A stretch of DNA of 33,611 bases from Mesorhizobium sp. (GTDB lineage Bacteria > Pseudomonadota > Alphaproteobacteria > Rhizobiales > Rhizobiaceae). The position numbers were made by a program, and so were the translations under genes. The notes beneath the pieces were generated by a model. The model did not search any database. It was given only the letters and a program-made list of their open reading frames with translations, and was not told the DNA's origin. The stretch is from positions 1 to 33,611 of the forward strand of contig JAIPUZ010000101.1 in NCBI GenBank assembly GCA_022833215.1. Direction: 5' to 3'. Shown here piece after piece: positions 6,995-31,981 of the stretch. The first letter of the stretch is position 1. Every line of letters begins with the position of its first letter.

Positions 6995-7026
6995 GCAGGC
7001 GCCCCCGCTCTGCCGGCATCACCGAT

Positions 7027-7060
7027 GGCAATCGTCCGGCCTTTCGGACGGACGATTGCC
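7027..7060. terminator. Convergent-gene hairpin (probable bidirectional terminator)
   Basis: Perfect 12-bp inverted repeat: GGCAATCGTCCG (7027-7038), 10-nt loop, CGGACGATTGCC (7049-7060). It sits in the 75-bp gap between the convergent stops of the 6500-6994 gene and the porin gene. No clear T-tract follows on either strand, so it may act with Rho or simply protect 3' ends. Confidence 0.6.
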
Positions 7061-7069
7061 CGGACCGCC

Positions 7070-8149
7070 TCAGAAGGAGCGGCGGAAGCGCACCCAGCCA
7101 CCGACGGCGTCGGAATTGCTGGTATCGAAGTTGTCCCGATAGGTGATTTCCGGCTGGATATAGAAGCCGGGCACGACATCGTAGACCAGGTTAGCTACAG
7201 CGGCGAAATTCTCGTTCTCGTCATAGGCAAGCGCCAGGTTGGCCGCCAGCTTCGGCGAAAGCTTTGCGCTGCCTCCGCCCCACACGGCCCAGTTTCCACC
7301 CCACGGCTTGTAGACGCTGTTGGCGATGTTGTCGTCCGTGCCGTAGCCTGCCATCGCCCACAGCGAAACCCTGTCGGTCGCCTGAAGCTCGACGCGCAGC
7401 TTGCCGGCGAATTCCTGATAGTTGGAATCATAGCCGACCACGCCGTAGATGCCGCCCCATTTCTGCCTGAGGGATGCACCGGCCACAATGTGGGGCACAT
7501 AGGAATCGATGGTGTGGGTGAGGCCGTTGCCCTGTTCGAGACCAATGAGCGCCGCGAAGCCATTGCCGCCCTTGAAGGTGTAGGAAATCTGACCCGTGGC
7601 CGAAGGACCGACGGGAACCAGCTCATCCTGTATGACCTTGCCGGCGAACAGCGTGAAGGACTTGAAGAGCGAGCTCGAATAGCCGACCTTCAGGCCGCCG
7701 AGTTCCGCATAGGCGTGCTTGAGTTCATAATAGTTCTCGGTGTTGCTGGTCGAGACGACGTTCGCGCTGCCCGTCGAGCGATAGTCGAACCAGAGCTCGG
7801 TATAGCCACGCAAGGTTCCGAGTTCCGTCTCGGAACGGGCATCGACCATCAAACCGGCGCGGGCACGCTTGAAGTAGGTGTCGTTGCGGTCCGGCTGGCC
7901 GTTCTTCTTGTCCCAGGAGACACGGCCGACCAGATCGCCGACACCAATGTCATACTGTGCATAGCCCGAGATGCGCAGGCAGTTTTCCGTGCCCGGAATA
8001 TAGAAGAAACCGACGCCATAGGCATCGCAGACGCGCACATATTCGGCAGGCTCAGGTTCGGCCACCACCACCGCATCGGCAGCGAAGGACATCGATACGG
8101 ATGTAAGCAAAAACGTGGAAATAATTCCGGTTGTCGACATAATCTTCAT
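7070..8149 (-). CDS. Omp2-type outer-membrane porin (Porin_2 family)
   Basis: 359 aa from the ATG at 8149. The frame extends 10 codons further to a TTG, but the ATG has GGGGGAAG upstream and starts a normal signal peptide. Signal sequence MKIMSTTGIISTFLLTSVSMSFA precedes mature ADAVVVAEPEPAEYVRVCDAYG. The motifs YIPGTENCLRISGYAQYDI and the final RFRRSF with C-terminal Phe are hallmarks of the trimeric 16-stranded porins of Brucella and rhizobia. Two cysteines (in VCDAY and ENCLR) are conserved in that family. The rest alternates polar and hydrophobic residues as in beta strands. Role: passive diffusion of small solutes across the outer membrane. It is convergent with the secretion locus. A perfect palindrome lies in its leader, and a possible distant regulated promoter lies about 620 bp upstream. 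The large upstream intergenic region suggests its own controlled promoter, which I could not place. Confidence 0.95.
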   Translation of the reverse strand: MKIMSTTGIISTFLLTSVSMSFAADAVVVAEPEPAEYVRVCDAYGVGFFYIPGTENCLRISGYAQYDIGVGDLVGRVSWDKKNGQPDRNDTYFKRARAGLMVDARSETELGTLRGYTELWFDYRSTGSANVVSTSNTENYYELKHAYAELGGLKVGYSSSLFKSFTLFAGKVIQDELVPVGPSATGQISYTFKGGNGFAALIGLEQGNGLTHTIDSYVPHIVAGASLRQKWGGIYGVVGYDSNYQEFAGKLRVELQATDRVSLWAMAGYGTDDNIANSVYKPWGGNWAVWGGGSAKLSPKLAANLALAYDENENFAAVANLVYDVVPGFYIQPEITYRDNFDTSNSDAVGGWVRFRRSF

Positions 8150-8173
8150 GCCAACTTCCCCCTTTTGTGGATT

Positions 8174-8190
8174 TTTCAACCCGGTTGAAA
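8174..8190 (-). promoter_or_regulatory. 17-bp perfect palindrome in the porin leader
   Basis: TTTCAACCCGGTTGAAA consists of 8-bp arms around a central C. It ends 25 bp upstream of the porin ATG and just before the Shine-Dalgarno. It could be an operator, or an RNA hairpin in the porin mRNA leader controlling translation or stability. Confidence 0.5.
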
Positions 8191-8595
8191 GACAAAACAG
8201 TTCTCTTCCCGGATCAAGGACGAACCGGGCGCAGCACTCCCAATGGATGCAATTCGGGCGTTCGGTCGATTAGCTCATATCGGCCTCCGTCATATAACCT
8301 TTTGATTTCCTGTATTATTTATCCGCGGAAGCCGCCCCGATCGCAGCGCGAGCACCCCCCCAGGAATGTCGCTTCCGGCATCCCGCGATCAGACCCTGCA
8401 CTCAAACGGAAAGAAGTCGCGGGAATCCCGCCGACGCCATCCTGCACGCGCCCCCCGCGAAAGCGGGCAGCGATCTTCCGGATTCGCTTTCGCGCTCCAA
8501 GATATTGTTTTAACTATTTTATTTTCAGAAATCCCCTTTCAGGGAGAAATACCCGAATCCCGGAGACGGTGCAGCAGTACCTCCTGACGCCCGCC
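8191..8595. other. Non-coding region upstream of the porin, with hairpins
   Basis: No convincing gene. The open frames here start with TTG or GTG and have random-looking, Arg/Pro/Ser-rich composition. It contains the inverted repeat CGCGAAAGCG (8456-8465) / CGCTTTCGCG (8485-8494), a candidate end for the transcript from the 8.8-kb promoter. It also contains the hairpin GTCGCGGGAATCCCGCCGAC (8416-8435), and A/T-rich patches (8290-8325, 8500-8530) that may hold the porin promoter. On the minus strand an AGGAGG at about 8580 is followed by no usable start codon. Confidence 0.5.
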
Positions 8596-8673
8596 TCAAT
8601 CAAAACCTTCATGAATAATACAGAAGCACACCGAAACAGATGCGCATAATATTCCAAAAACAAATGAGATCAT
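8596..8673 (-). CDS. Candidate 25-aa single-span membrane peptide
   Basis: Too short for ordinary gene calling. On the minus strand GAGGGG sits 5 nt before an ATG opening 25 codons ended by TGA. The peptide begins MISFVFGILCASVSVCFCII and ends HEGFD: a single hydrophobic span of about 18 residues with three cysteines and a short acidic tail. It lies about 95 nt downstream of the conserved promoter at 8764-8815, which points at it. Small hydrophobic proteins of this size act as accessory subunits of transporters or oxidases (CydX and KdpF are examples of the type), but I see no partner gene directly downstream. It could instead be a chance ORF in an A/T-rich leader or a remnant of a deleted operon. 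The ribosome binding site, hydrophobic content and promoter context favour a real peptide, with moderate doubt. Confidence 0.4.
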   Translation of the reverse strand: MISFVFGILCASVSVCFCIIHEGFD

Positions 8674-8763
8674 GACATCCCCTCACTCTTTTATGCTTAT
8701 TCTTTCTTGTTTTTTACCATCCGGGAAAATTCCCATCATCTTCCGGCACGGCACCTCGCCACC

Positions 8764-8815
8764 GGATTTGAACCATTTGATTGACATGTTGTCAATTGGA
8801 ACATTCGGTTCCAAT
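8764..8815 (-). promoter_or_regulatory. Promoter P1 with shared operator, reading toward the small ORF and porin
   Basis: On the minus strand: perfect dyad ATTGGAAC-N5-GTTCCAAT (8815-8795), then TTGACA (8795-8790), exactly 7 nt, then AATCAAATGGTTCAAAT with TCAAAT (8771-8766) as -10 after an 18-nt spacer. The same arrangement and spacing recur at 11004-11055 and 12459-12510. The operator-like part covers the spacer and -10, as expected for a repressor site. A second small palindrome, TTGACA-TGT-TGTCAA (8781-8795), overlaps the -35. Confidence 0.65.
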
Positions 8816-9098
8816 ATAAAATCATGCCGGATGGGCGGCGGGCTTCACCCTCGATTTTGTAAAATCTTTAATATATTCAGATAATTACAATACGCACTTG
8901 CCTTCGGAACAGCATCGGGCCGTGCGAAGGATGGACGATCCTCTCATGCTGCCGCGCCGGCTTTTTCAGGGATCATACGGTTCAAAAGGCGAATCTCCGT
9001 TGCTGGAACGATACTTCATGTGCTTCGGTCTCCTCACCGCACAACCGGCACATTCAAGGCTCCGTCCTGCAACGAATCCGCTGCGCGGCGATAATTCC
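8816..9098. other. Intergenic region between promoter P1 and the acyl-CoA synthetase stop
   Basis: No gene with good support. The plus-strand frame 8898-9104 begins with TTG, has no clear ribosome binding site and looks random. On the minus strand ATG 9019 (GGAG 10 nt upstream) could open a 17-codon peptide ending at 8966, but its coding sequence coincides with the extra operator-like site. The 8816-8895 stretch is A/T-rich, as expected for sequence upstream of a promoter. Confidence 0.45.
8971..8989 (+). promoter_or_regulatory. Extra operator-like site without a -35 box
   Basis: GATCATACGGTTCAAAAGG matches the operator part of the 11004-11055 promoter at 17 of 19 positions. No TTGACA-like hexamer lies 7 nt upstream, so it is not a promoter copy. 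It is about 155 bp upstream of P1 and in the opposite orientation, a layout compatible with an auxiliary operator for looping or cooperative binding. Confidence 0.45.
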
Positions 9099-10775
9099 TC
9101 ATGACCTCTCCGCTGCGGCGCACGCCGCCTCTTCCTCCTGCAGGACCAGCTTCGACAGCTTGCCGACGCTGGTTCGGGGCAGGCTTTCGCGTATCTCCAG
9201 GGCCTGGGGGAGTTCGTGGCGGCCAAGCCGGCTGGCGAGGAAAGCACGCAATTCCTCCAGCGTGAATGCATCCGCGCCGGTCCTCAGTGCGACGAACGCC
9301 TTGGCGGCCTGCCCCCGATAGCTGTCGGGGATGCCGATGACGATACATTCGGCAACATGCGGATGCTCATAGATCGCCTCCTCGATGGTGCGCGGATAAA
9401 CGTTGAAGCCCCCGCTCAGGATCATGTCCTTCTTGCGATCGGTCAGGAAGACGAAGCCGTCCCTGTCCATGTGGCCTACGTCGCCGGTCAGGAACCAGCC
9501 ATCCCTGAACGAAGCGGCGGTTTCTTCCGGCCGGTTCCAGTAACCGGGGAAGAGATTGGGCCCGCGCATCCTGATCTCGCCGGTCCGGCCGGGTGCAAGC
9601 ACGCGCTGCGGATCCTTCATGTCGACGACCTGAAGCTCGATACCCGGCAAGGGCATGCCGATGGAACCGGCGCGGATTTCGCCACCGGGCGAATGCTGGC
9701 AGCCGATGGCGGCCGCCTCGCTCATGCCCCAGCCGGAATAGATGCGAAGACCTGTCAGCCTCCCGAAGGTGGCAGCCACCTCGACAGGCAGCGGCGCGCC
9801 GCCGGAAGTCGGCAAGGACAATGCGGAAAGATCACGCGTGGCGATGTCGGGGTGATTGGCCAGCGCGATCCACATGGTCGGCACGCCATGGAATACCGTG
9901 ATGGCATGGCGCTCCAGATCATCCAGACATTGGTCGGCATCGAAACGCCGCCGCAGGACGACCGTATTGCCGTGACCCAGATGCCGGTTCATCATGGTGA
10001 AGGCAAAGGCATGAAACAGCGGCAACAGCATCAGCGTGCGGTCCGGATCAGACGGATCACGGCGGCGCACCGTCTGCCAATAGGCCGAAATTTCGGCGGC
10101 AGCGGTAATGTTGGCATGGGTCAGCGCCGCCCCTTTCGGCAGCCCGGTCGTGCCTCCGGTGTACTGAAGGACGGCAACCTCGGCCGCCCCGACCTCGACG
10201 GGTGCGGGGAGAGGCGGCACCGCCAGCAGGTCCGCGACCGGAACCGCACCTTCGGGAAGCTCACGCAACGGCGAGGCTCCTTCCCAGAACGCGTCGTCAG
10301 CCACGACGAGCCTGTCGACAAGCCCCATTGCCTGCACCTCCGCAGCTCTGGCGAGAAGGTCCGGCTCGGCAAGGGTAACGAGCACCCGCGCGCCGGAATC
10401 CCTCAGCTTGTGCGCGATTTCCCTGACCGCATCGAGCGGGCTCAGCTGCACCACACGCAGCCCGGCGGATGCGCCGCCGAACGCCGCAATGGTGTGATAA
10501 GGCGTGTTCGGCAAGAGAAGGGCAACGCCATCCCGCGCTTCCGGCATCCGTGCCAGCGCGGACGCCATGCGCAACACCATCTCGCCAAGCGCCCGATAGG
10601 TGATCGAGGCATTGCCATAGACAATGGCGGTGCGGTCGGCATGACGCCGCACGCTGCGCGCCAGAAATTCTCCAAGAGACGCCGTCGGAACCGGGGCGTC
10701 CCAGCTTATCATATCGGGATAGCTGGCTTCCCAGAGAAACGGACGCGCAGGAACAGGATTTGCAAAGGGCATCAT
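9099..10775 (-). CDS. AMP-dependent acyl-CoA synthetase/ligase (ANL superfamily)
   Basis: 558 aa, cytoplasmic. It would activate a carboxylic acid with ATP to an acyl-AMP and then to the CoA thioester. Visible ANL motifs: P-loop YTGGTTGLPKG (from residue 205), GWGMSEA (348-354), WFLTGD with the ribose-binding Asp at 432, DRKKDMI in the hinge region, and the C-terminal catalytic Lys in SVGKLSK (K539). Length is normal for long- or medium-chain and aryl-CoA ligases. The substrate cannot be read from sequence. Two ATGs are adjacent (10775 and 10772) with no good Shine-Dalgarno, and the first overlaps the stop of a 43-codon upstream ORF (ATGA), suggesting translational coupling. A conserved regulated promoter lies about 230 bp upstream, and the RpiR gene is upstream of that. 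I infer a catabolic role shared with the nearby aminotransferase. Confidence 0.93.
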   Translation of the reverse strand: MMPFANPVPARPFLWEASYPDMISWDAPVPTASLGEFLARSVRRHADRTAIVYGNASITYRALGEMVLRMASALARMPEARDGVALLLPNTPYHTIAAFGGASAGLRVVQLSPLDAVREIAHKLRDSGARVLVTLAEPDLLARAAEVQAMGLVDRLVVADDAFWEGASPLRELPEGAVPVADLLAVPPLPAPVEVGAAEVAVLQYTGGTTGLPKGAALTHANITAAAEISAYWQTVRRRDPSDPDRTLMLLPLFHAFAFTMMNRHLGHGNTVVLRRRFDADQCLDDLERHAITVFHGVPTMWIALANHPDIATRDLSALSLPTSGGAPLPVEVAATFGRLTGLRIYSGWGMSEAAAIGCQHSPGGEIRAGSIGMPLPGIELQVVDMKDPQRVLAPGRTGEIRMRGPNLFPGYWNRPEETAASFRDGWFLTGDVGHMDRDGFVFLTDRKKDMILSGGFNVYPRTIEEAIYEHPHVAECIVIGIPDSYRGQAAKAFVALRTGADAFTLEELRAFLASRLGRHELPQALEIRESLPRTSVGKLSKLVLQEEEAACAAAERS

Positions 10776-10903
10776 GGCAGCACCGAACGCTCAGCAACGA
10801 AAAAGGGCTCGCCTGACATGGTCAGCGATATGAAGGCCGAATCCGGCCCGCGCGAGTGCGGCTGACAGCCCGGCGTGTCCGGACACCGACAAAGACAGTA
10901 CAA
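10772..10903 (-). CDS. Possible 43-codon leader ORF coupled to the acyl-CoA synthetase
   Basis: On the minus strand GGGGAGG is followed 5 nt later by TTG, opening a frame of 43 codons. Its TGA overlaps the synthetase ATG (ATGA). The peptide has four Cys in its first 13 residues (YCLCRCPDTPGC) and ends FFVAERSVLP. The synthetase lacks its own Shine-Dalgarno, so coupling through this ORF would explain its translation. The frame stays open further upstream and the start is non-ATG, so this may be chance. I do not recognise the peptide. Confidence 0.25.
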   Translation of the reverse strand: MYCLCRCPDTPGCQPHSRGPDSAFISLTMSGEPFFVAERSVLP

Positions 10904-11003
10904 ATCATCCTCCCCGCAGAGCTGCGGCCCTGTTTTCGCGGCCTCCGCCCCGGATTGTCGAAGGCACGCCGTCAGGCTCCTCCCGGAGTCGTTTCGGGAC
11001 AAG

Positions 11004-11055
11004 CCATTTGAACCATATGATCGGATTTATTTCAACAGGATCATTTGATCCAATC
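11004..11055 (-). promoter_or_regulatory. Promoter P2 with shared operator, reading toward the acyl-CoA synthetase
   Basis: On the minus strand: GGATCAAATGATCC (perfect 6+2+6 dyad, 11038-11051), then TTGAAA (11035-11030), exactly 7 nt, then GATCATATGGTTCAAAT with TCAAAT (11011-11006) as -10 at 18-nt spacing. It aligns without gaps to P1 and P3. The 228-nt leader that follows holds the short coupled ORF and small hairpins such as GTGTCCGGACAC. I see nothing in 11056-11299, between P2 and the RpiR stop. Confidence 0.65.
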
Positions 11056-11299
11056 CCGAAAGCAAACGGGCGGAGGATTGTTGCAGGCCGCCTATTCATG
11101 CGGGCGTGGGCAGAGCGCCGGCTGCGATGCGGTGTGCCGGATCGCCGTCATGGAGCATCCGGAAACCGGCACGGCGCAGACGCTTCCTGTGGAAGCGCCC
11201 GAAGGCTCCCGCACTATTCGGCGGACGAATGCAGCGGCATCAATTCACGTGGCCGATGCACGCATGTGCCGGACCCCGGTCTTCCCCGAAGCATTGTCG

Positions 11300-12235
11300 C
11301 TATTCCGCCTGCGACTTCGATCGCCGGCGAGAGCGGGTTCCCGCAACCATGTATTCGCCGGACTCCACCAGAAAGCGCTCATTCTTGCGAATCCGCTCCT
11401 GTGCCGGTTCGGCCAGCCTTGCAACGGCAAGGGCGACAAGCAGATTTGCGAGCGCGATCGCGCCGCCGGAAGATTCCGGAAACGCCCGGCTCAATGTCGG
11501 GGCGATGAAGAAAAGATCGCCGGCAAACTTCCTCAGGGGCGGAGCGGGCGAATCGGAAATGGCGACGATATGAGCCTTGGCCGCCGCCGCCCGGCGAACC
11601 AGCGTATCGGTGACGCGGCTGAACGGTGCAAAGGTGAAAGCCACCACAACATCTCCAGCCTGGACATCGTCCAGACCGGCCTCGGGCGCGCCGGAGACAT
11701 CGTCCAGAAGCCTCACCTGCGGGCGGGCCTTTCTCAGCGCGTAAGCGAGGATGAAGGCCGGAGGGAAGGTGGTCCTTCGTCCAATGACGAAAACATTCGG
11801 CGCCGTAGCCAGCAGATCGACGGCCTTGGCAATACGCGGCAGCGTCAGGCCGGCCGCCATACGCCGGATGATCTCTTCCTCGCCGTCGATGAATGCCTGC
11901 ACGAAAGGCCCGAGGCCATCCTTGCTCTTGGACGCGGCAAGGATGGAGCGCGCGCTCTCGATATTGCGTTTGGTGGCCAGGTTCGTACGCCGCCCCTTGC
12001 CCAGCAGCACATCCACATAGGTCTTTCGCAGCTCGCCATAGCCGGGCAGCCCCAGACGCTGCGCGAGGCGAACAAGCGTCACGGGCGGAACGTCCGCATG
12101 CCGGGCCAGTTCGCGCATTGAAAAAACGGCAACGTCATCAGGATGAGAAAGCAGGTAAGTGGCGGCCTGCGCCATATGTCCTCCAAGATGAGGGAGGATA
12201 TCCTGCAATTTATCGCGTATTTCGCCCTGATCCAT
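11300..12235 (-). CDS. MurR/RpiR-family transcriptional regulator (HTH_6 + SIS)
   Basis: 311 aa. The N-terminal helix-turn-helix domain is about residues 5-80, with MRELARHADVPPVTLVRLAQRLG as the HTH and LGLPGYGELR behind it. The SIS sugar/phosphosugar-binding fold spans about 120-260: VFVIGRRTTFPPAFILAYAL followed by DDVQAGDVVVAFTFAPFSRVT. Members bind DNA as dimers and respond to a small ligand, often but not always a phosphosugar. Relatives also control amino-acid and other catabolic genes. The start ATG at 12235 has GGAGATAAGG upstream. It is divergent from the aminotransferase and upstream of the synthetase, and the shared operator motif lies at both those genes and again upstream of the porin. 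That makes it the best local candidate for the motif's binder, probably as a repressor released by a pathway intermediate. The ligand is unknown. Confidence 0.93.
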   Translation of the reverse strand: MDQGEIRDKLQDILPHLGGHMAQAATYLLSHPDDVAVFSMRELARHADVPPVTLVRLAQRLGLPGYGELRKTYVDVLLGKGRRTNLATKRNIESARSILAASKSKDGLGPFVQAFIDGEEEIIRRMAAGLTLPRIAKAVDLLATAPNVFVIGRRTTFPPAFILAYALRKARPQVRLLDDVSGAPEAGLDDVQAGDVVVAFTFAPFSRVTDTLVRRAAAAKAHIVAISDSPAPPLRKFAGDLFFIAPTLSRAFPESSGGAIALANLLVALAVARLAEPAQERIRKNERFLVESGEYMVAGTRSRRRSKSQAE

Positions 12236-12254
12236 TTTTATACCTTATCTCCGG

Positions 12255-12270
12255 CGACTCCGAAGAGTCG
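12255..12270 (-). promoter_or_regulatory. C(UUCG)G hairpin in the rpiR-type leader
   Basis: Perfect 6-bp stem. Read on the minus strand it is CGACTC-TTCG-GAGTCG, so the mRNA would carry an extra-stable C(UUCG)G tetraloop. The stem ends close to the Shine-Dalgarno of the regulator gene. A role in mRNA stability or initiation is plausible. A separate palindrome CGTTCGACGAACG (12339-12351) lies further up the same leader or promoter region. Confidence 0.45.
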
Positions 12271-12458
12271 TGCGTTGTAGTCTGTTTGCCAGACTTAAAA
12301 TCAATTGCACAGCCGGTTTCTATCAACAGGACAGCGTCCGTTCGACGAACGCCGGAAAGCCCGGCCGGCAAAACCCCGCCCGCGCCCGCGCCGGAGTCCG
12401 GCGGATGTTCCCATCTGCGCAGGCCCGCTCCCGAGCGGCTACCCGAAGCGGCCACCCA

Positions 12459-12510
12459 ATTGAACCAAAAAGTTCTTATTGACATATGAAGAATCAAATG
12501 GTTCGAATGT
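12459..12510 (+). promoter_or_regulatory. Promoter P3 with shared operator, reading toward the aminotransferase
   Basis: ATTGAACCAAAAAGTTC (an imperfect GAAC-N6-GTTC dyad), then TTGACA (12479-12484), exactly 7 nt, then AATCAAATGGTTCGAAT (12492-12508) with TCGAAT (12503-12508) as -10 at 18-nt spacing. The aminotransferase ATG is 27 nt beyond the -10. It aligns gap-free with P1 and P2. A bound regulator would cover the -10 and spacer, which suggests repression. Confidence 0.7.
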
Positions 12511-12535: not shown

Positions 12536-13894
12536 ATGAATTCTTCAGTCCACAGCAAGGCCGGGGCATCTCTTCTCGGACACAACAGTTCGCGCTCCTC
12601 CGCCGCATTCCTGCGGGAAACGGAAGTCGTGCCCGGCGGCTCGATGCGGCAGGCTTCCTGGTTTGGCCCGCCGCCCTATGCCGCAAGCGGCTCGGGCTGC
12701 TGGATTGTCGACGTGGACCAGCGGAAAATCCTCGATTGCGCCAACAACTTCTTCTCGCTCATCCACGGCCATGCCTTCGCTCCTGTCGTTGAGGCCCTGG
12801 GCGAAATGCTCCGCAGGGGAACTGCCTTCGGCCTGCCGACGGAGGTTGAAATCGAGCTGGCCGAGACCCTCGCCGCGCGTGGGCCGGCGCTGGAGCAAAC
12901 CCGTTTCTGCAACTCGGGCTCGGAAGCCGTCATGCATGCGATCAAGGGCGCGCGCGGCCTGACCGACCGGCACCGGATCGCCAAGTTCGAGGGCTGCTAT
13001 CACGGCTCCTACGACTATATCGAAGTCAGCCTTGAATCGTCGCCGGACAACTGGGACGATGCGGACGGCAATCCCGCATCGGTGGGCTACACGCGCGGCG
13101 TTGCGCCTGCCGTGCTGACAGACACCGTTATCCTGCCCTACGACAATGCGGAGCTTTGCGAAGCCATCCTCAGGCGCGAAGGCCCCACGCTGGCGGCGGT
13201 CATCCTGGACCCCCATGCCTCCCGCGCAGGCATGATGCCGATGTCGGATGACGTGATCCAGGTCGTTCAAAGGGCCTGCCACCGTGACGGCATCATGCTC
13301 ATATGCGATGAAGTCATATGCTTCCGGCTGAGCCCCCGCGGAGCGCATCCGATATTCAACATCGAGCCCGATTTCGTCACGCTTGCCAAGACCATCGGCG
13401 GCGGGCTTCCTGTCGGCGCCGTATCCGGCCCGAGGGACCGCATGAGCGTGTTCGATCACACCGGAGGAAAACCCCGCGTGGCCATGGGCGGCACCTTCAG
13501 CGCCAACCCGATGAGCATGGTGGCGGGCCTTGAAACGCTGCGCCACTACGACGGCGACCAGATCGAGCGGCTGAACAGGTTGGGCGAACGTCTTCGCAAG
13601 CTCGTGAGCGACGGGCTTGCGGCAGGCGGCGTGGCAGGCAGCATCACCGGCATGGGGTCGCTGTTTCGCCTGCACCTCACCGACCGGAAGATAACCGGAT
13701 ACCGCAGTTCCTACCCCAACCCCGCCGAAGCGGCGGCACTGAAGGCCATTCATGGCGCCATGCTGGCTGACGGCATCCTGCTTACGCCCAACTGCTCGGG
13801 CGCCTTGTCCACGCCGATGACCGAAGCCGAGATCGACCTTCTCGCCGACAGGCTTGTCGCCCACACCATCGCCTGCCCCGTCCAGCCGGCCTGA
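12536..13894 (+). CDS. Class III PLP-dependent aminotransferase (GSA-aminotransferase-like)
   Basis: 452 aa from ATG 12536, which has AGGAG 9 nt upstream. The frame opens 19 codons earlier at an ATG that overlaps the promoter, so that start is unlikely. Motifs: an N-terminal VVPGGSMRQ resembling glutamate-1-semialdehyde aminomutases; NSGSEAV (126-132) for cofactor phosphate; ICDEV with PLP-nitrogen Asp D258; and LAKTIGGGLPVGA with the Schiff-base Lys K285. GTFSANPMSMVAG follows, as usual. The cofactor and fold are secure. The substrate is not: the neighbours (synthetase, porin, RpiR regulator) suggest catabolism rather than heme synthesis. Relatives of this subgroup include beta-amino-acid transaminases of rhizobia, a reasonable alternative to the aminomutase label. 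It is controlled by P3 and likely by the divergent RpiR protein. Confidence 0.92.
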   Translation: MNSSVHSKAGASLLGHNSSRSSAAFLRETEVVPGGSMRQASWFGPPPYAASGSGCWIVDVDQRKILDCANNFFSLIHGHAFAPVVEALGEMLRRGTAFGLPTEVEIELAETLAARGPALEQTRFCNSGSEAVMHAIKGARGLTDRHRIAKFEGCYHGSYDYIEVSLESSPDNWDDADGNPASVGYTRGVAPAVLTDTVILPYDNAELCEAILRREGPTLAAVILDPHASRAGMMPMSDDVIQVVQRACHRDGIMLICDEVICFRLSPRGAHPIFNIEPDFVTLAKTIGGGLPVGAVSGPRDRMSVFDHTGGKPRVAMGGTFSANPMSMVAGLETLRHYDGDQIERLNRLGERLRKLVSDGLAAGGVAGSITGMGSLFRLHLTDRKITGYRSSYPNPAEAAALKAIHGAMLADGILLTPNCSGALSTPMTEAEIDLLADRLVAHTIACPVQPA

Positions 13895-18375: not shown

Positions 18376-18866
18376 CTGATCCGGAGTTCCTTGAGCTGCC
18401 ATGCCCAGCGATGATCGAACCGCGAATCCCGAAGCTCCTGGAAATCGTCGCGCGGATAGACGACCCAGTAAGGCCCCTTGTCGCTCACATGCAGCCGCTC
18501 GCCATCCATATAGGCCGCGATCAGGACATCGTAGCGGGTGACATCGGCCAGCGGGAACTCGACCTCGTAGTCGTTGAGCGCAATCGCCGTGACCACGGAA
18601 TCGGGATGGTCGCCCGGATCGATGCCGGCCGCTTCCAGTATTTTTTCAAGGGACACACCTTCGAACAGGTGGGGACCTTCCGTCCAGACGGTGCTGGTGG
18701 TGATCCTGCTGCGTGGCAGGGCAAGCAGCCGATCTTCTGTCAGAACGGTTTCCCGCCCGTCAGCGGACAGGATTCTGAGGCTGCCAATGGCACCGGCATT
18801 AACGGTCTGGGCCATGATGAGAAACAACCCTGCGAACAACAGTCGCCATCCCGAACCCATGCGCAT
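18372..18866 (-). CDS. Exported sulfite-oxidase-like (molybdopterin-domain) protein without the catalytic Cys
   Basis: 164 aa; M1 at 18866 or M3 at 18860, the latter better spaced from AAAGG. A signal peptide (WRLLFAGLFLIMAQTVNA) predicts periplasmic export. The mature part resembles a shortened oxidoreductase molybdopterin-binding (SUOX) domain: TSTVWTEGPHLFEGVSLEKIL, ALNDYEVEFPLADV, YMDGERL..SDKGPYWVVYP. Active members of the fold hold Mo-pterin through a conserved Cys, but the mature sequence here has no cysteine at all, so enzymatic activity is unlikely. The gene is translationally coupled to the kinase (ATGA) and heads the operon. I infer a periplasmic ligand- or redox-sensing accessory for the kinase. 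Confidence 0.85.
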   Translation of the reverse strand: MRMGSGWRLLFAGLFLIMAQTVNAGAIGSLRILSADGRETVLTEDRLLALPRSRITTSTVWTEGPHLFEGVSLEKILEAAGIDPGDHPDSVVTAIALNDYEVEFPLADVTRYDVLIAAYMDGERLHVSDKGPYWVVYPRDDFQELRDSRFDHRWAWQLKELRIR

Positions 18867-18889
18867 GCCTTTCAGTCGTCATACTCAGA

Positions 18890-18911
18890 CTTGGCGACAT
18901 GCATAGCCAAG
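18890..18911. promoter_or_regulatory. Inverted repeat upstream of the signalling operon
   Basis: CTTGGC-N10-GCCAAG, perfect 6-bp arms, centred about 35 bp upstream of the 18866 start. It is a possible operator for the three-gene operon, perhaps for autoregulation. The rest of the gap up to 19058 contains degenerate GGTCGGGGCAG repeats and no gene. Confidence 0.3.
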
Positions 18912-19058
18912 GTTCGGAGTGTTTTCGACCCGACAAGGCAAAATTCTTTAGGCCAGACAGAAAAGTCCGGTCAGCGCAGGCCGGGTCGGGGCAGCCATGT
19001 TCGGGGCGGGTATGGTCGGGGCAGGCCGGGCCGGCGCGGAAATCCCGGCTCGGCATCG

Positions 19059-19589
19059 CTACAAATCCGCGTGCCGGTCCAGAGCCGACGCGAAGCCTTT
19101 CAGGGAAACGGAAAAGGTGAGCTCCTTGTCATCGGTGCTGGTCACCTTCAGCATGAGTGTCGATCCGGACCGCAGGGCCTTGAGAGCCGCGGCGTCGAAC
19201 TCGACTGGAAGAATGCAGCCGGCGGGCAGGCAGGTCGAGAAATGCGCTGCCGGAAGCGCTGCCTCGTCATCGACCTGGAAGGTGACCCCCTCCTGAAGTT
19301 TCAGCCCGAAGGGAAGAACGGCAATGCCCTTGATGCCGTCCTGCGACCGGGACTGGATCTCGATGGCGAGAATGCGCTGGCCGCCCTGCTGGTATTGCTG
19401 CTGCAACACAGCGCATTGCTTGGCGCCGTTGGCAATCTGGCAGCTGACCTGCCAGTCCTCGTGCGTCTCCTGCAACGAGGTTGCCCCGCCCGGCAGGACG
19501 GCGGCTTCCTGCGCAACGGCGGAAGGCGCGCCCAGCGCGCCTGCAGAGAACAGGAGCGCCGCGAAAAATGTCGATTTTGCAGTCTTCAT
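19059..19589 (-). CDS. IalB-family (invasion-associated locus B) exported protein
   Basis: 176 aa. Signal peptide MKTAKSTFFAALLFSAGALGAPSAVAQ, then a compact domain with DWQVSCQ...QCAVLQQQ, IEIQSRSQDGIKGIAVLPFGLKLQEGVTFQVDD, FSTCLPAGCILPVEFD and a final TFSVSLKGFASALD. This is the IalB family pattern, with four cysteines that probably form two disulfides. IalB was named in Bartonella, where it aids erythrocyte invasion. Homologues are widespread in non-pathogenic rhizobia, so no virulence role should be assumed. It lies about 100 bp after the autotransporter stop on the same strand, separated by a terminator-like hairpin. Confidence 0.92.
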   Translation of the reverse strand: MKTAKSTFFAALLFSAGALGAPSAVAQEAAVLPGGATSLQETHEDWQVSCQIANGAKQCAVLQQQYQQGGQRILAIEIQSRSQDGIKGIAVLPFGLKLQEGVTFQVDDEAALPAAHFSTCLPAGCILPVEFDAAALKALRSGSTLMLKVTSTDDKELTFSVSLKGFASALDRHADL

Positions 19590-19643
19590 GTCGAAATTCC
19601 GGTTTCAATGGTCCGGGATCTGCATCCCTGTGAAATGAGGCAA

Positions 19644-19668
19644 CCCCGGCCTAACCAGATGGCCGGGG
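19644..19668 (-). terminator. Hairpin after the autotransporter gene
   Basis: CCCCGGCC (19644-19651), 9-nt loop, GGCCGGGG (19661-19668). On the minus strand it lies about 24 nt after the autotransporter stop and is followed by TTGCC, a weak T-run. It is likely a terminator or attenuator between the autotransporter and the IalB gene. Confidence 0.55.
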
Positions 19669-19691
19669 CAATATCGATGCGGAAGCCGGTC

Positions 19692-22600
19692 TCAGAACTT
19701 CCAGCGCAGGCTGACGGAGCCGCTGTGCACATCCGTGTAGCTGCCGAACTGGCCCTGATAGCCGGCTTCCACGCTCCAGCCCTTCAGGCTTTGCAGTTCG
19801 GCCGACGCACCGATCTTCCAGTTCGACCTGTCAAGCGGCGTCGCGATCATGGCCGGGGCAGCAGCCGTGGAGGCGCCGATGAAGCTGATCGGCGTTTCGA
19901 TCATGTCGGTCGAACGATAGGCCCAGCCACCGCTCAGCGACAGAAGACCTTCCACGCCGTCTCCCGCCTCGAACCGGTATCCCAGCGACAGCTTCGGCTC
20001 CACCTCGCCGATATACTGGGTGTGCGAGGACATGCGCACACCGATTCCGCCGAGGCCACGTTCGGCATAGCTGCCGGTATGCAGGGCGGTGCCGGTGAAG
20101 GCCAGCGCAGGGCGCAGGGTCAGGCTCTCCGCCTCGGCCGTGTAGCCGATCTCCGCGGAGAGCTGGCCATAGCCGCTGTTGCCGCTGGCGGTTCCCAGTC
20201 CGGGCTCGAACACGTTGACGGAGCGCGTCGTGTCGTACCACTGCCATCCACCCGTCGCGGTGAAGGCGAGGTCGAAGCCGTTGCCGAATGCACGGCGTGC
20301 GCCGAAGCCAACGTCGAAGCCGTGCCCCTGCCCGTTGAACCGCTCGTCGTCCACGAACAGGCGGTCCATACGGTTGTAACCGAGGGCGCCCGACACCGAC
20401 CACCCGTCTTCAAGACGATGCTCGAAGCCGGTGCGCAGGGAAAGGGTACGGCTGGTTGCACCCCAATAATCCTGCGTCGCCTTCTGATCGAGCTTCGCCA
20501 CGCCAGCATCGGCCCACAGGCAGTTTTCGGCATCGCTTCCGGACCAGCGGCATTCCAGCATCCGCTCCCTGAAGCCGGCGGCCGTGCGATACTGCGTGTG
20601 AAGGGGAGCGACGTGACCCTCGGGATTGAGCTCGCCGAAGACGGTCTTGTAAAGCTCCTCCTGACCTTCCTCCATGTTGCCGAGAGCGGCCATCAGCCGG
20701 CCGATCCCGGAAGCGTCGCCAACCTGCAGGGCAGAATCCATGTGAGCGCCCAGCCGCCGCTCGTTCGGGCGCAGGAACTCGCGCCCGAAATCGCTCTGCA
20801 CCGTCAGATGGATGCCATCCTCGTCGCCGACGATGCCATAATCCAGCGCAAGCGTGCCCGGAACGGAAAGCCCGTTGTCGACGCCCTGCCCCTCTGTCGC
20901 GAACAGGGTCACCGGACGGGCGTTCTCCAGCCACATCAGGTTGATGCGGCCGTTGCCCGCAACCAGCGCATCGCCGGTGACGTTCACCCGGTCGGACGCA
21001 TAGGGGCCGAAGGCGACATCGAACTCCATGTGGCCTGCATCGGTCTGGACGAAATTGCCGTCCAGCGCGACCTCGCTCACCACCCGCGAACCGAACAACA
21101 GGTTGGTCGCGGGATCTTCCTCGTCGTCGAAATCGGGGAAGACATAGCCGGAAGCCAGGTCTTCGGCCCAGCGCGGCGCCGACAGCCCCATCAGGAACGT
21201 GCCGTCATTGGTGAAGGTCGCGACCCCATCCGCAACCGCGGCAGGAAGAGCCCCGCCCGCGCCATCGCCCAGGCCGATCGTGTCGAAAGCCATGAAGACG
21301 GCGTCGGCACGGTTGAGGAAGCGGTTTTCGCCGCTGCCGAGATCGACATTGCCGATCGTCAGGCCGGTGCTCTCGACCGTATCGTTGCCGTCGCTGCCAC
21401 GCACCGCCCATCCGGACACCGCCGACAGCGAGCCGGTGGCGAGCAGGTGATTGTCGGCACCGCCGTCCACCACGACCGCCGCGCCCCGGCCCGAGCCGCC
21501 GCGCACCAGGCCGCCGAGGGTCATGGCGATGTCGCCCGCGCCGTCCTGTCCCCTGCTCTGCGCAAAGACGCCGATGGAATTGGCGCCCGCGGCAAAGATC
21601 AGATCCGAGATGTCGAGACCGATCGCGCCGCCGGAGCCCTCGCCGCCGGCGGAACCGGCGAAGATGCCGTCGACCCAGCCGCCACCGCCGCCGAGGCTCT
21701 GGGCGATCACCCCATAGGCATCGTCGCCAAGCACCACGATCTCGTCGGACTGGGTGAAGGACACGGCGCCGCCGTTGCCACGGTTCTCACTGTTGAGGGC
21801 GACGGTCGTCTGGCTGTCCGCGCCGAAGACGCTGCCGCCGCCACCGCCGATGCTCTGCAGCAGAACGCCGTGCGCTCCGGCCCCTGCCGTCACGATCGCG
21901 CCATCGTTGACGAGCGAAACCATGCCGCCATCGCCCTCGGCGTGGTTGCTTCCGCCGAGCGACACGGATGCGATCCCGGTGCCGGCGACACGGACATCGC
22001 CGCCGCCCGCACCGATGGATTGCAGCATCAGGCCGACCGAACCGTCGCCCGTCGTCACCGCACCGCTGAAGATGCCCTCGACCGAGCCGCCATGGCCGCC
22101 GGCGGCATCCTTCGCCCCGAGCGACGCGCCAACATTCCCGGCCGCGCCCGACACCGAGGCGACCGATGCGCCGCCGCCAGCGCCAATGCTCTGCAACAGG
22201 GCGGCTGTCGCCCTGTCCCCGGTCGTGGCAATGCGCCCGATCTGTTCACGCACGACATTGCCGGCCTGTTCGCCCTGACTCCCGAGAGCGCCCAGTTCAA
22301 GACGAATGTCGCCGAACGCCGCATCCGTGTCGTTGAGGAAATTGCCCACCGCGACGCCGCCGCCGCCGCCGATCGACTGGCTCAGAACGGCGGCCGACAG
22401 CAGGCCCGTCGTAACGACCTCGCCTGTCTGCGAGGCGAGGATGTCGCCTCCCCTGTTGCCGGTGCCGTCCTGGCCGCCGAGGGCCAGCTCGAAATGAAGC
22501 GGGACCGCATCAGGATCGCCGTTGTCCGCGCCGAGGCGCGCACGCACGTCCACCGTGCCGCCGCCGCCGCCGATTGCCTGAGCCAGATCGCCGAACGAGA

Positions 22601-25600
22601 GATTGCCCGCCGCGCCGAAGGTGCCGGTGGAGTTGACCGTCACCTTGCCGGCATTCATGCCTGCGGCCCCCTGCGCACCGGCGCGGGCCACGACCATCGT
22701 GTCGGGAACTTCCGGGTTTCCGCTGGCACCGATCACCGGAGCCCCCGGAAGGCTCTTCACACCGTCGAGGTCGAGCGCAAGCGTGCCGCCGCCGCCGTTG
22801 ATGCTTTCAGCCTTTATGGCCACCGATCCGTCGCCAAGCACCGTGATGTCGCCGGAATGGATGACGACGACCTCGCCTCCCGCTCCGCCGGTGCCGCCGC
22901 CGACCGCGCCGAGCAACCCGTTGATCACCCCCGAGAGCCCGGGGCCGGAAGCATTGTCGAGAGCCGTCAGGACCATGTTGGCGTTGCCGCCGCCGCCGCC
23001 GATCGACTGCGCGACCACGCCATGCGCATTGGCGCCCTGCGTGAGGATGGTGCCGCTGTTGCTGACGACGACCTTTCCGCCGTCGCCGCCATCGGCGCCG
23101 AAGCCACCCACCGAAATCAGCGGAGCGGAGTCATCCGTCGTGATCAGCGAGTTCATGGCCAGGACGAGACCGCCATTGCCGCCGCCGCCGCCGACAGACT
23201 GAGCGATAATGCCATGGGCGCCATCGCCGGAGGTCTGGATGATCCCCTCGTTTTCGACCGTGACATCGCCGCCGCTTTCGCCGGTGCCGCCCGTGCCGCC
23301 GACATTGAGGCCGGCGACCGTGCTGCCCGTATCCGCGACGAGGCCCTGAACGCTCACGATGGACGAACCGTTGCCGCCGCCGCCGCCGATGGACTGCGCC
23401 ATGATGCCATGGGAGCCGGCGCCTTCAGTGACGATCCAGCCGGTTTCATCGGTGTCGGCGGGCTTGTTGGTTACCCGTACCGCGCCGCCGGTTCCGCCAG
23501 CACCGCCATCGCCGCCGAGATTGACGGCGTAGCGCTGCGACTGGTTGCCGCCGGTAACGCCGAGGACGAGGTTGATCATGACGCCGGCGTCACCGCCGCC
23601 GCCGCCGATGCTGCTGGCGCCGATGCCGACTGCGTCGATGCCCTTCGTGTAGATCAGCCCGGTGTTGTCAACCACAACCTCGCCGCTCGCGGCCCCGTCG
23701 CCGCCCGAACCGCCCAGATTGAGCTCCGCAGCCTGGCTTTGATAAGGTCCCTGAACCGTCGCCGAGATCACCGACCCGCCGATGCCGCCGCCGCCGCCAA
23801 TCGACTGGGCGCGGACGCCGAAGGCGCCGTCTCCCTGCGTGGCGATGATGCCGCTGTTGGCAACGGTGACGGAGTCCGCAACAGCTCCTTCGCCGCCGTC
23901 TCCGCCGACGCTGAGCGTCGCCGTATTCATCGTCGAGCCCTTGGTTTTAACCTGCAGGCCGATGGTGCGGACCGAGCCGCCGAGGCCGCCGCCGCCGCCG
24001 ATGGACTGGGCGAGAATGCCGTCGGATGCCTCGCCCTCGGTCAGGATCATACCGGCATTGCCGACGCGCACCTTGTCGGAGTGCGCGCCCTTGCCGCCCG
24101 TGCCGCCAACCGCGATGTTGGCCGAATTGGCCGCCATGACAATGGTCGATCCGGCCGTTCCGGCAATGCCGCCGCCGCCGCCGATGGACTGGGCGACGAT
24201 ACCGCGCGCCTCACCGCCCGTGGTGGCAATGATGCCTTCGAAATCGACCCCGACCGCGCCGGATACGGCGCCTTCGCCGCCATCGATCCCGACCTCCACG
24301 CTCGCGCTGGAGCTTTCACCGGCCTCGTTCTCGGACGAAACGCCGACCGACGTCGAGGAAGAGGTGCCGCCGCCGCCGCCGATGGACTGGGCGAGGATGG
24401 CGGTCGATCCGTCGCCAAGCGTCTGGATGCGGCCATTGGCGGACACGGACACGGTGTCGCCCTCGCCGCCGATGCCGCCCTTGCGGCCGATGCCGATGCT
24501 GACGGAACTTTTGGCGCCAGGGCTCATCGCCATGCTGGTTGCGGTGTTGCCGCCGCCGCCGCCGATGGACTGGGCCACCAGGCCATAGGAATTTTCACCC
24601 TGGGTCAGAATATCGCCGACATGATCGACGGTGACCTTGCCTCCTGCACCCGCAGCCCCGGTCGCGCCGCCCACGACGACGCTCATGCCAAGGCGCGCCT
24701 CACGCATGAGGCCCGCGCCGATGTTGTAATTCGCGTTGCCGCCGCCCCCTCCAATCGACTGGGCGACCAGACCATGCGAAGCCGCGCCATCGGTGACGAT
24801 GGTGCCATTGTGGCGCACGTCCACCGTGTCGCCGGCGCCTGCACCCGCACCCGAGCCGCCGACTGCGATGAGAGCTGCGAATTCCTGCCCCTGCGCGCCG
24901 CTGCCCATGGGTTTGACGCCGAGCACGAGATTTGCCCCGGCCTGGCCACCGCCGCCGCCGACGGACTGCGCGACAAGGCCGCTGGTGCCGTCACCGAAGG
25001 TGCGGATCAGACCGGGCGCGGCTGTTTCCACACCACCTTCCTGCGCATAGCCACGCGTGACGGTGACGCTGCCGGCATGGCCGCCCGAACCGCCCGAGCC
25101 GCCGACGCCCAGCGACACCGGCGATCCCTGCAACGAAACGACGCCGGTGACATTAATACCACCCACGCCGCCGCCGCCACCGATGGACTGGACGAGAACG
25201 CCCGCGCCACCGCCCGTGTAATCCGTGGCTTCGAGATTGTCTTCGTCGGCCCCGGCATCGGCAACGATGCGGCCATTGACGATGACATCGCCCGTGCTGT
25301 TGAAGGACACATCACCGGCATCGGCACCGGTTCCACCCGTACCGCCGACACCTGCGGCCAGCGCGACGGACTTCTTGTGCCCCGCCGAAAGATTGCCGGA
25401 GACGTTCAGCCCGCCGGAACCGCCGCCACCGGCAACGGACTGCACGAGCGCGCCAATGCTATCGCTGCCCTCCACGTAAATCTGGCCGTTGTGGGAAACG
25501 TTCACATCGCCGCTGATATTGCCTGCGCCGCCGAAGCCGCCGATGCCGAACACCAGCGAAGGCTCGCTGGTGTACTGGTCGGCCTGAATGCCGCCTGCGA

Positions 25601-28600
25601 TATTGATCGCGCCGGCACCGCCGCCGCCGCCAACCGACTGCGCCAGAAGACCGCGCGCGAACGAGCCGGCCGCATAGAGATCGGCATCGACCACAGCGTC
25701 AACGTCGTCACCCTTGCCGCCATCGCCGCCAAAGCCGCCAACACCGACCGTCAGCGCCGCATCCAGCGTCAGTCCGCCGGAGACGTTGATGCCGCCGGCG
25801 CCACCGCCACCGCCAACCGACTGCGCAATCACCGCGGAGCGGTTGTCGCCATTGGCCTGGACCTGCACGCGGTCCGCGCCCGGCGCGCCAATCGCAAGCC
25901 TGACGGTGGACGCATCACCGCCCGCACCGCCAAATCCGCCCACGCCAAGGGTTACCGCACGCGAATTCGAATTCTGCGGCTGGCCAAGGGCCAGGCTACC
26001 CGAAACGTTGAGGCCGCCCGAGCCGCCGCCGCCGCCGACCGACTGCGCGACAACGCCATTGGAGCCGCCCGATCGTGTGCGGGTGGCGTAAATTTCGCCG
26101 TCGTCGCCCTCGTCATAGGTGATGAGATCCCCATCCGAACCCCTGGCCCAGACATTGCCCGTGACCGTCGCCGTGACCGCCCCCGCATCGCCGCCGCCGC
26201 CGCCAAAGCCGCCAAGGCCGAGGCTGATGCCGGTTGCGGTGGATTTTGTGGTTGCCGAAAGCGAGCCGGACACATTGATGCCACCCGCACCGCCGCCGCC
26301 GCCAACGGATTGCGCAACAACGGCATCGGCATTGCGCCCTTCCGTCTGCGTGTCGCCGGTGCGCGTCAGCACAACAGCGCCGGCATCGCCCCCGGAGCCG
26401 CCGAATCCGCCGACGCCCACGGTGACGGCCGCCGAATCGCCGCCGCCAACCGCGACCGCGCCGGAAATATTGATGCCTCCGGAGCCGCCGCCGCCGCCGA
26501 TGGACTGGGCGGAAACGCCGAATGCGTCAGCGCCTGCGGTCAGATAATCGCCAACGACAGTTCCCGTCACACCCGCGGCATCGCCGCCCCCGCCGCCGAA
26601 GCCGCCGAGGCCAAGGCTCACCGCGCCGGAAAAACCGTTGCCGGTCGTCAGATTCGCGCCACCGGTGACATTGAGGCCGCCTGCGCCGCCCGCGCCGCCG
26701 ACCGACTGCATGAGCGCGCCGAACGAGCCAGTGCCATGGGTCTCTACATTGCCGGTCAGGCTCGCCACCACGGTGCCGGCATTGCCGCCGCCGCCACCGA
26801 ACCCGCCAATGCCGAGACCGATGTTTCCGGAGCCGTTCTGGCTGCCGGTGATGCCGCCGGTGACATTGAAGCCACCCGCGCCGCCACCGCCGCCGACCGA
26901 CTGGATCAGCGCTGCATGGGCCTGTTCGCCGCCGGTGAAGATGTTGCCGGCATGGGTGAGCGCCACAGAGCCGGCATCGCCGCCATCACCGCCAAAACCG
27001 CCGATGCCAAGGCCGGCCGTGCCGGCCATCTTCGAGATCGCAATGCCGCCGGTGACGTTGAAGCCGCCCGAGCCGCCGCCGCCGCCCAGACTCTGATAGG
27101 TCAGGCCGTAGCTGTTGTCGCCTTCCGTGAAGATGTCGCCCGTGACGATGCCGCTGACGGCCGCGCCATCACCGCCACCGCCACCAAACCCGCCAATGCC
27201 GACCATCAGGTTGCCGGCTCCCTGCGCGGCAGCGGAAATGCCGCCCGCGACGCTGAAGCCGCCCGAACCGCCGCCACCGCCGGCGGACTGCGCAAGGATC
27301 GCACCGGCATCATCACCGCGCGTGATGACAGCGCCATCCACGTTGGCCGTGACCGAAGCCGCGTTTCCGCCGCCGCCACCGCCGCCGCCAAGGCCGACGC
27401 CGACATTCCCGGCTCCCTGACCTGCGCCGGAGATGCCGCCCACCACGCTGAAGCCGCCGACACCGCCGCCGCCGCCGAGGGATTGGGCGACGATGGCCGC
27501 CGATCCGTCGCCTTCGGTAATGGCCCCGATCTTCAGATCGTCGTCAGCGCCGGTCGCGCCCTCGACCGTCAGCGCGACCGTTCCGCCGTCGCCGCCGGCG
27601 CCGCCCTGTCCGCCAAGCGAGACGCCGATGGTGCCGGCACCCGCGCCGGCAACGGCAATACCGCCGCTCACGTTGAAACCGCCGGCACCGCCGCCGCCGC
27701 CAACCGACTGCGCCAGAATGGCCGTGCTGCCGTCACCCGCCGTGCCGGTGCGCCCGGTGACGCCGAGGGTGACCCTCTTGCCGTCGCCGCCGCCGGCGCC
27801 CGAGCCGCCAAGACCGACATTGACCGTGCCGGCACCGGTTCCCGCGGCTGCAATGCCTCCGGACACATTGAAGCCGCCCGAACCGCCGCCGCCGCCGAGC
27901 GACTGCGCCACGATCGCATTCGAGCGGTCGCCGAGCGTCGTCACATCGCCATCGACCAGCGCATTGACGGTGCCGCCATCGCCGCCGCCGCCACCCGAAC
28001 CGCCGAGCCCGACGCTGACCGCGCCGCCGCCGGTGCCCGCCCCCATGATCGAGCCGGACACGTTGAACCCGCCCGAACCGCCGCCACCGCCGACCGATTG
28101 AGCGAGGAAGCCGGTTGCGTCGTTCCCTTCGGTAAAGATGGAGGCCGCATGCGCCACCACAGTGCCGGCATCGCCGCCGGAATCGCCTTTGCCGCCCAGG
28201 CCGACAGAGGCCGCACCGGCACCGACCCCGCCGCCGATGGACCCTGAAACGTTGAAGCCGCCGGCACCGCCGCCGCCGCCGATCGACTGCACGATCATTC
28301 CCGACGACTGGTTGCCGGTCGTATGGATCGTGTCTTCCGCATAACCGGATGCATTGCCGCCGGCGCCGCCTTCACCGCCGCTGCCACCGATACCCACGGA
28401 GATCGCCCCGGCTCCGATTCCGCCGGAAATCGACCCGGACACGGAGAACCCGCCATTGCCGCCGCCGCCGCCGACCGACTGCACGACGAATGCGCTGGAT
28501 TGCTCGCCTTCGGTGAGCACAGGACCTTTCACGCGGCCGGTGGCCGTACCACCGTCACCGCCCTTGCCGCCGGCTCCGCCGATGCCGACCGAGACCGAAC

Positions 28601-31472: not shown

Positions 31473-31981
31473 TTCCGCCTCCTTCCCACATCTTGCGGCG
31501 CAGGAAGAAATCCGAGGCAATCACACGCACCCATCAAATGGGGCAGGAAAAGGCTACAGTTCATCAAATCGACAAATGCAAACTCCCGGTCGCGGGAGCC
31601 TTTCCATGTGTATTCTGAGCGGAATTCGTCCAGCCAAGCACTGCCGCGAGTTTTGCAACAGCATGTGGCACCGTTTCAATTCCCGTAAATGGGGGGATGG
31701 CACCAGCTCATCCCCGAACGCCGCGGCGGGATGATGCCGGCGAGCCGATCTCTTCGAGCAATGCCGGCTCGGCGGCGGTCAAAAACGGGACCGGTCCGAC
31801 ACGCGGCCAGTGCAGACCCTTTCCAACCGCTCGAAGCCGAATCCAAAGTACTATTTTTCAGCGTATGGAGGACCTTGTCCGCAGGCTTGCGTTGGCGTAC
31901 TCGGAGGCCATCGGATTTTTGGGCTGACTGGCGGCACCGGGGAGCGGTGCTGCGTTCCAGCTTCATGACATTGGGGATGTG
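31473..31981. other. Divergent intergenic region between autotransporter and aconitase genes
   Basis: About 0.5 kb without a supported gene. A plus-strand frame at 31697-31927 (76 codons) has Arg/Pro/Ser-rich, random-looking composition and no good ribosome site. The region must hold both divergent promoters, but I could not place a confident -35/-10 pair for either. The A/T-richer patches at 31540-31600 and 31840-31865 are the likeliest places. Confidence 0.5.

Follow-up and report, generated by a model that had tools for sequence, protein, structure and literature searches.

The targets of MurR in Escherichia coli are muramic acid genes. This HTH and SIS protein has been proposed to act as a tetramer that bridges two adjacent sites over the -35 and -10 hexamers, 47 bp in total (PMC12713135). 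NanR of Streptococcus pneumoniae (SpNanR) shows dimer-tetramer behaviour; it activates its targets and is described with no full adjacent second site, only a degenerate half-site (PMC12713135). In alphaproteobacteria, IolR recognizes palindromic GGAA-N6-TTCC sites in scattered operons, one of these sites having been shown to act in basal repression, and for Caulobacter iolC the two motifs are reported 104 and 45 bp ahead of the start codon, and so at a distance other than 30 bp (PMC2597717).

The locus analysed here lies in a 33,611-nucleotide stretch of Mesorhizobium DNA (the window), which is contig C101 of a 4.55-Mb draft genome. As proposed for the MurR system, an HTH and SIS protein accompanies two adjacent dyads over the -35 and -10 region, here spanning 42-43 bp, a likeness of geometry and not a comparison of operator sequences. 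Unlike MurR, the targets here are aminotransferase, CoA ligase and transporter genes, and an SxSG-type phosphate-binding loop is replaced by TFAPF[SN]R. The domain build is also that of NanR from S. pneumoniae and Vibrio vulnificus (VvNanR), but the loop that holds the sugar-phosphate effector of NanR is missing in the present clade. With IolR, our regulator shares the RpiR family, palindromic sites and scattered operons, whereas its half-site is GRAYC and not GGAA, its targets are aminotransferase, CoA ligase and ABC transporter genes in place of inositol genes and it falls on a separate branch of the tree.

Very probably, the three elements of the window and a further copy on contig C111 are operators of one regulon under the RpiR-type protein encoded at 11300-12235, which would bind and repress them. 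The two-dyad architecture is of a known kind, as proposed for MurR; the regulon, its GRAYC-N4-GRTYC operator and a ligand loop without the customary phosphate-binding serines are apparently new. In a literature that covered subscription journals thinly, no paper linked RpiR proteins to tandem palindromes, hydantoinase or hydantoin, and among those on RpiR and regulons in Mesorhizobium none concerned this regulon, judging by titles.

Architecture and likely action of the element

Three promoters of the window had been described beforehand as sharing a 52-bp arrangement, and our alignment, which is gapless, places all three exactly where they had been reported. Element 1 (8764-8815, minus strand) carries dyads at 8811-8798 (GAACCGAATGTTCC) and 8783-8770 (CAATCAAATGGTTC), with TTGACA at 8795-8790 and TCAAAT at 8771-8766. 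Element 2 (11004-11055, minus strand) has its dyads at 11051-11038 (GGATCAAATGATCC) and 11023-11010 (CGATCATATGGTTC) and TTGAAA at 11035-11030, while in element 3 (12459-12510, plus strand) the dyads occupy 12462-12475 (GAACCAAAAAGTTC) and 12491-12504 (GAATCAAATGGTTC) and TTGACA 12479-12484. The 7-nt gap after TTGACA or TTGAAA and the 18-nt spacing to TCRAAT also agree with the earlier account. Each element consists of two 14-bp dyads with half-site GRAYC (GRAYC-N4-GRTYC) and a -35 hexamer, TTGACA or TTGAAA, in between, the downstream dyad covering the spacer and the -10 region. The dyad centres are 28-29 bp apart, nearly three helical turns, in all four copies of this genome and in relatives.

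Exact matches to the core RATCAWATGGTTCRAAT in the window number three; allowing up to three mismatches gives four matches against a shuffled mean of 0.13, the additional one having two mismatches. To be scored as a paired site, two dyads had to lie at a distance of 28-30 bp and be accompanied by five or more of the six positions of TTGACA. At a score of at least 17.2 there are three such sites in the window and none in 40 dinucleotide shuffles of it. A single dyad at 8970-8983 (core near-match at 8971-8987) was considered as a further operator and rejected: it has no partner dyad, and single dyads of comparable score are at chance level, with two in the window against a shuffled mean of 1.22.

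The preliminary description had called the core a near-perfect 14-bp dyad; its dimeric HTH protein is better read as one that probably binds as a dimer of dimers, with a pair of operators as its target. According to this model, a tetramer made of two RpiR dimers and linked by the SIS domains would occupy both dyads, and the resulting clamp over the -35 and -10 hexamers would exclude RNA polymerase and repress transcription. A small-molecule inducer at the SIS interface would release or rearrange the tetramer, and the aminotransferase, CoA ligase and ABC transporter would then be derepressed. Activation is the most serious alternative, and we regard it as rather unlikely: the RpiR protein would bind the same elements but would either help a promoter whose -10 is poor and whose spacer measures 18 nt or act with its ligand in the manner of pneumococcal NanR. 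What makes it possible is the poor -10 (TCRAAT), with which none of the three elements was reported by a strict promoter scan. The -10 is weak and the spacer long in all three elements, and pneumococcal NanR, itself an RpiR protein, is an activator. However, the downstream dyad overlaps both the spacer and the -10, a position in which bound proteins as a rule obstruct polymerase, and MurR and VvNanR, which use adjacent paired sites, are repressors (PMC12713135). We favour repression by the RpiR-type protein.

The RpiR-type regulator and its association with the element

The predicted binder of the elements (11300-12235, minus strand) has an N-terminal HTH_6 domain (PF01418, 35.8 bits, cut-off 28.3) and a C-terminal SIS domain (PF01380, 30.8 bits, cut-off 25). 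Its close orthologues are sparse, being found in 5 of 146 Mesorhizobium genomes (E <= 1e-50), 6 of 148 Rhizobium genomes (E <= 1e-60) and 3 of 397 genomes sampled across the order. The second of these genera is called Rhizobium here because one of its genomes, G170, shares contig and sites with that of R. ecuadorense (L081). Among named genomes, 12 loci were recovered. Nine of them, with identities of 46-50%, come from Rhizobium, Agrobacterium, Ensifer and Bradyrhizobium; the other three are Mesorhizobium sp. Root102 and two distant homologues (31%) that were left uncounted. In a quick tree, 13 orthologues group together as a single clade (SH-aLRT 99), separate from the paralogues; the R. ecuadorense locus (L081) is not among these 13 rows.

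The upstream half of the element together with TTGACA (GGATCANNTGATCCNNTTGACA) has exact matches in 6 of 148 Rhizobium genomes, at 26 sites, all on the contig that carries the RpiR gene. These are the same six genomes that have the RpiR orthologue, a coincidence with a chance probability of 7.6e-11, although the cluster could be transferred horizontally as a block, which weakens this figure as evidence of binding. In Mesorhizobium, a looser GRWYC pattern matched exactly in two of the five genomes with the RpiR gene and in none of the 141 without it. With one mismatch it was found in three of the five (missing G020 and G065) and in 23 of the 141, each of the latter having one or two scattered matches; the reversed control matched in 4 of 141. 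Together with the conservation at orthologues described below, the Rhizobium co-occurrence supports the candidate RpiR regulon suggested at the outset, and RpiR control of the elements appears very likely from these sequence comparisons.

The mobility of such clusters could also mean that a different DNA-binding protein uses the paired dyads and that the RpiR gene is a mere neighbour, which we judge quite improbable. The candidate in its favour is a LysR gene near one site common to G003 and G027, with a weaker homologue (31%) in the Bradyrhizobium stretch L163. However, this LysR has no match in the window, on C111, in G020 or in the remaining fetched loci. The AraC, LuxR-type response regulator and kinase genes of the window likewise lack homologues in those orthologous stretches that were fetched (E <= 1e-4; annotated ORFs, with small ORFs covered incompletely). 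RpiR is the only regulator found common to the fetched loci and remains our preferred binder. A sparsely distributed rhizobial regulator thereby gains a defined operator, a list of targets and a strong phylogenetic footprint, which makes binding and inducer screens straightforward.

We also considered whether recognition-helix residues co-vary with the operator. At half-site position 2, proteins with VPPVT go with A in 11 of 16 half-sites (window and C111) and 3 of 6 (G020), and those with QPV[SN] go with G in 9 of 12, 9 of 12 and 16 of 20. Bradyrhizobium VPPVS, contrary to this trend, has G in 8 of 8, and the idea, being weak, was dropped.

Targets in the genome and in relatives

As previously proposed, elements 2 and 3 face an acyl-CoA synthetase and a class-III aminotransferase, respectively. 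Element 3 ends 25 nt ahead of the start of the aminotransferase (12536-13894, plus strand), which resembles glutamate-1-semialdehyde aminomutase. Element 2 lies about 230 nt ahead of the start of the synthetase (9099-10775, minus strand), for which the nearest model is the dicarboxylate--CoA ligase PimA (601 bits, below the cut-off of 705.6). The assignment of a porin to element 1 was mistaken. The porin gene (Brucella_OMP2, 7025-8188) is on the plus strand. Transcription from the promoter at 8764, on the minus strand, would enter this gene from its 3' end and give antisense RNA, and we rejected the porin as a target. The 25-codon ORF (8596-8673, minus strand; MISFVFGILCASVSVCFCIIHEGFD) does lie downstream of element 1 as stated, but it is a doubtful target: a search of 146 genomes (E <= 0.01), in which so short a query can miss diverged copies, found it in its own genome and in none of the 145 others, and it was discarded as a conserved target. 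Element 1 may be an orphan, may drive a small or antisense RNA, or may belong to a small gene that escaped recognition.

The roughly 570 bp between element 1 and the 3' end of the porin gene (8190-8764) are without a convincing gene. Elsewhere in the window, very long open frames overlap on opposite strands, one of 3278 codons at 18411-28247 (plus), which has no Pfam match, and one of 3942 codons at 19692-31520 (minus). Probably one of them encodes a large repetitive surface protein and the other is its shadow.

A fourth full element is present on contig C111 (L007:11572-11623, plus strand), upstream of genes for a family-5 peptide-type binding protein and ABC permeases. Divergent from it is a DMFA2_C (dimethylformamidase beta-like) gene with a perfect dyad of its own (GAATCAAACGATTC). 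In that divergent promoter (L007:11420-11520), TTGACA directly precedes the perfect dyad and a weak partner lies 28 bp on, possibly a variant fifth operator. Searching the 4.55-Mb genome with a 42-bp pattern (up to three mismatches) returned elements 1 and 2 and the C111 copy only, with none for the reversed control; element 3 is missed because its upstream dyad is shifted by 1 nt. The concern that the motif might be a genome-wide repeat is answered by this result, the three places all being known sites. Three of the four copies precede catabolic or transport genes, element 1 being the one with no credible target.

All 14 RpiR-orthologue-bearing genomes scanned (that of the window, G020, G003, G027, which is Mesorhizobium sp. 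Root102 (L087), G065 and the genomes of L078-L086) contain at least one paired element in which TTGACA or TTGACG separates the dyads. The preliminary description had advised looking for it ahead of orthologous genes, and it does occur there in genomes that retain the RpiR gene. In the Ensifer draft, the short contig of locus L082 has no paired element and contig C17 has two. The second dyad is a weak one at the two sites of G020, as it is at the divergent DMFA2_C promoter. Wherever the class-III aminotransferase gene was fetched, the element lies directly upstream of it (11 of 11 loci: the window, L045, L046, L047, L078, L160, L081, L083, L086, L162 and L163). Other genes with the element in front of them are, in R. 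leguminosarum, those for an ABC transporter, a GMC oxidoreductase and ETF as well as a 2-hydroxyacid dehydrogenase/FAD-oxidase operon. In G003 and G027 they are those for an ABC transporter of the sugar type and for a second GMC oxidoreductase.

Sites at orthologue loci score 16.2-19, most of them at least 17.2, and the lowest overlap the background. The latter was taken from 84 control loci (about 297 kb, leaving out L053, L057, L059, L065 and L071, which hold known sites) and amounts to three matches of 16.2-16.4, all in loci fetched for half-matching. One extra match each in the orthologue stretch L047 and the neighbour stretch L158 (16.4-16.6) is probably background as well. That the elements are chance or mobile repeats without regulatory role, as the lack of a conserved target for element 1 might hint, is extremely improbable and contradicted by the comparative data, given the empty shuffles, the dyads and -35 hexamer that are kept while the filler between them varies, and the same position ahead of orthologous genes in several genera. 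We conclude that the element of the three promoters is, as judged from sequence, a real and conserved gene switch across rhizobia, which probably governs how compounds with an amine or amide group are degraded.

Effector, pathway and similar arrangements elsewhere

In SpNanR, Ser179, Ser181 and Thr184 are among the residues that contact the phosphate (PMC12713135). A phosphate-binding loop is a common, though not a strict, trait of RpiR proteins, and the loops of MurR (SYSGSK) and VvNanR (SSSGST) align here to TFAPF[SN]R. All 13 aligned orthologues are without it, having TFAPF[SN]R or, in G065, TSYPYSR, with T201 and P204 invariant. The missing serines suggest that the effector of this clade is probably not a sugar phosphate, and point to RpiR effectors beyond that class. 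PDB entry 3sho, deposited as RpiR family, also departs from the loop (SVWRYL), so that its loss does not bar membership.

Judging by the genes present, the regulon may serve to degrade a compound with an amine or amide group via an omega- or beta-amino acid towards a dicarboxyl-CoA. In G020 the ligase is nearest to PimA (626, cut-off 705.6) and one acyl-CoA dehydrogenase to pimD small (496, cut-off 652.7), both of pimeloyl type. The hydantoinase-like pair of G003 is nearest to caprolactamase CapA (627) and CapB (352), each with a cut-off of 1000. As all these scores are under their cut-offs, they indicate a direction (amide or lactam opening, transamination, CoA activation) and not a name. The G000 and G020 clusters were also considered as simply the split and joined forms of one cluster; this was rejected, their DMFA2_C proteins being 24% identical. 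One may tentatively speculate, with rather more doubt than confidence, that an RpiR clade lacking the phosphosugar loop senses a non-phosphorylated amine or amide intermediate and controls, through the double-dyad clamp, a mosaic pathway from amides or lactams to dicarboxylates. According to this speculation the enzymes would vary by species (amidase-like DMFA2_C with a CoA ligase and beta-oxidation, or caprolactamase-like CapAB with a GMC oxidoreductase), with the regulator, operator and aminotransferase largely constant.

Our findings support the view that RpiR proteins may commonly work through paired operators around the -35 hexamer. At the Mesorhizobium locus L040, where an RpiR homologue is linked to an iolC-like gene (TIGR04382, above cut-off), TTGACT is flanked by an exact GGAA-N6-TTCC dyad and a near one, 30 bp from each other, which suggests that IolR may use a similar double-operator plan. 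Such pairs (the second GGAA-N6-TTTC), 30 bp apart around TTGAC(T), are seen at L040:2325-2368 and also at the RpiR-homologue loci L041, L043 and L044. In a search for pairs of any half-site in 28 other RpiR-homologue loci, the distances of 28, 29 and 30 bp were represented by 5, 1 and 11 pairs, compared with means of 1.5, 1.3 and 0.6 after shuffling. The result was not clean, as a distance of 33 bp also gave 11 pairs and others up to 7 (coding and intergenic pairs pooled). We judge only the pairs of L040, L041, L043 and L044 meaningful because of the TTGAC(T) between their dyads. Near another RpiR paralogue (L023, about 1415-1460), GCTCCAATTGTAGC and GCAACATATATTGC stand 29 bp apart around TTGACA, the same plan with another half-site. 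In uncultured Alphaproteobacteria, too, dyad-like pairs lie immediately ahead of distant RpiR homologues (L088:8876-8921 and L089:8830-8875).
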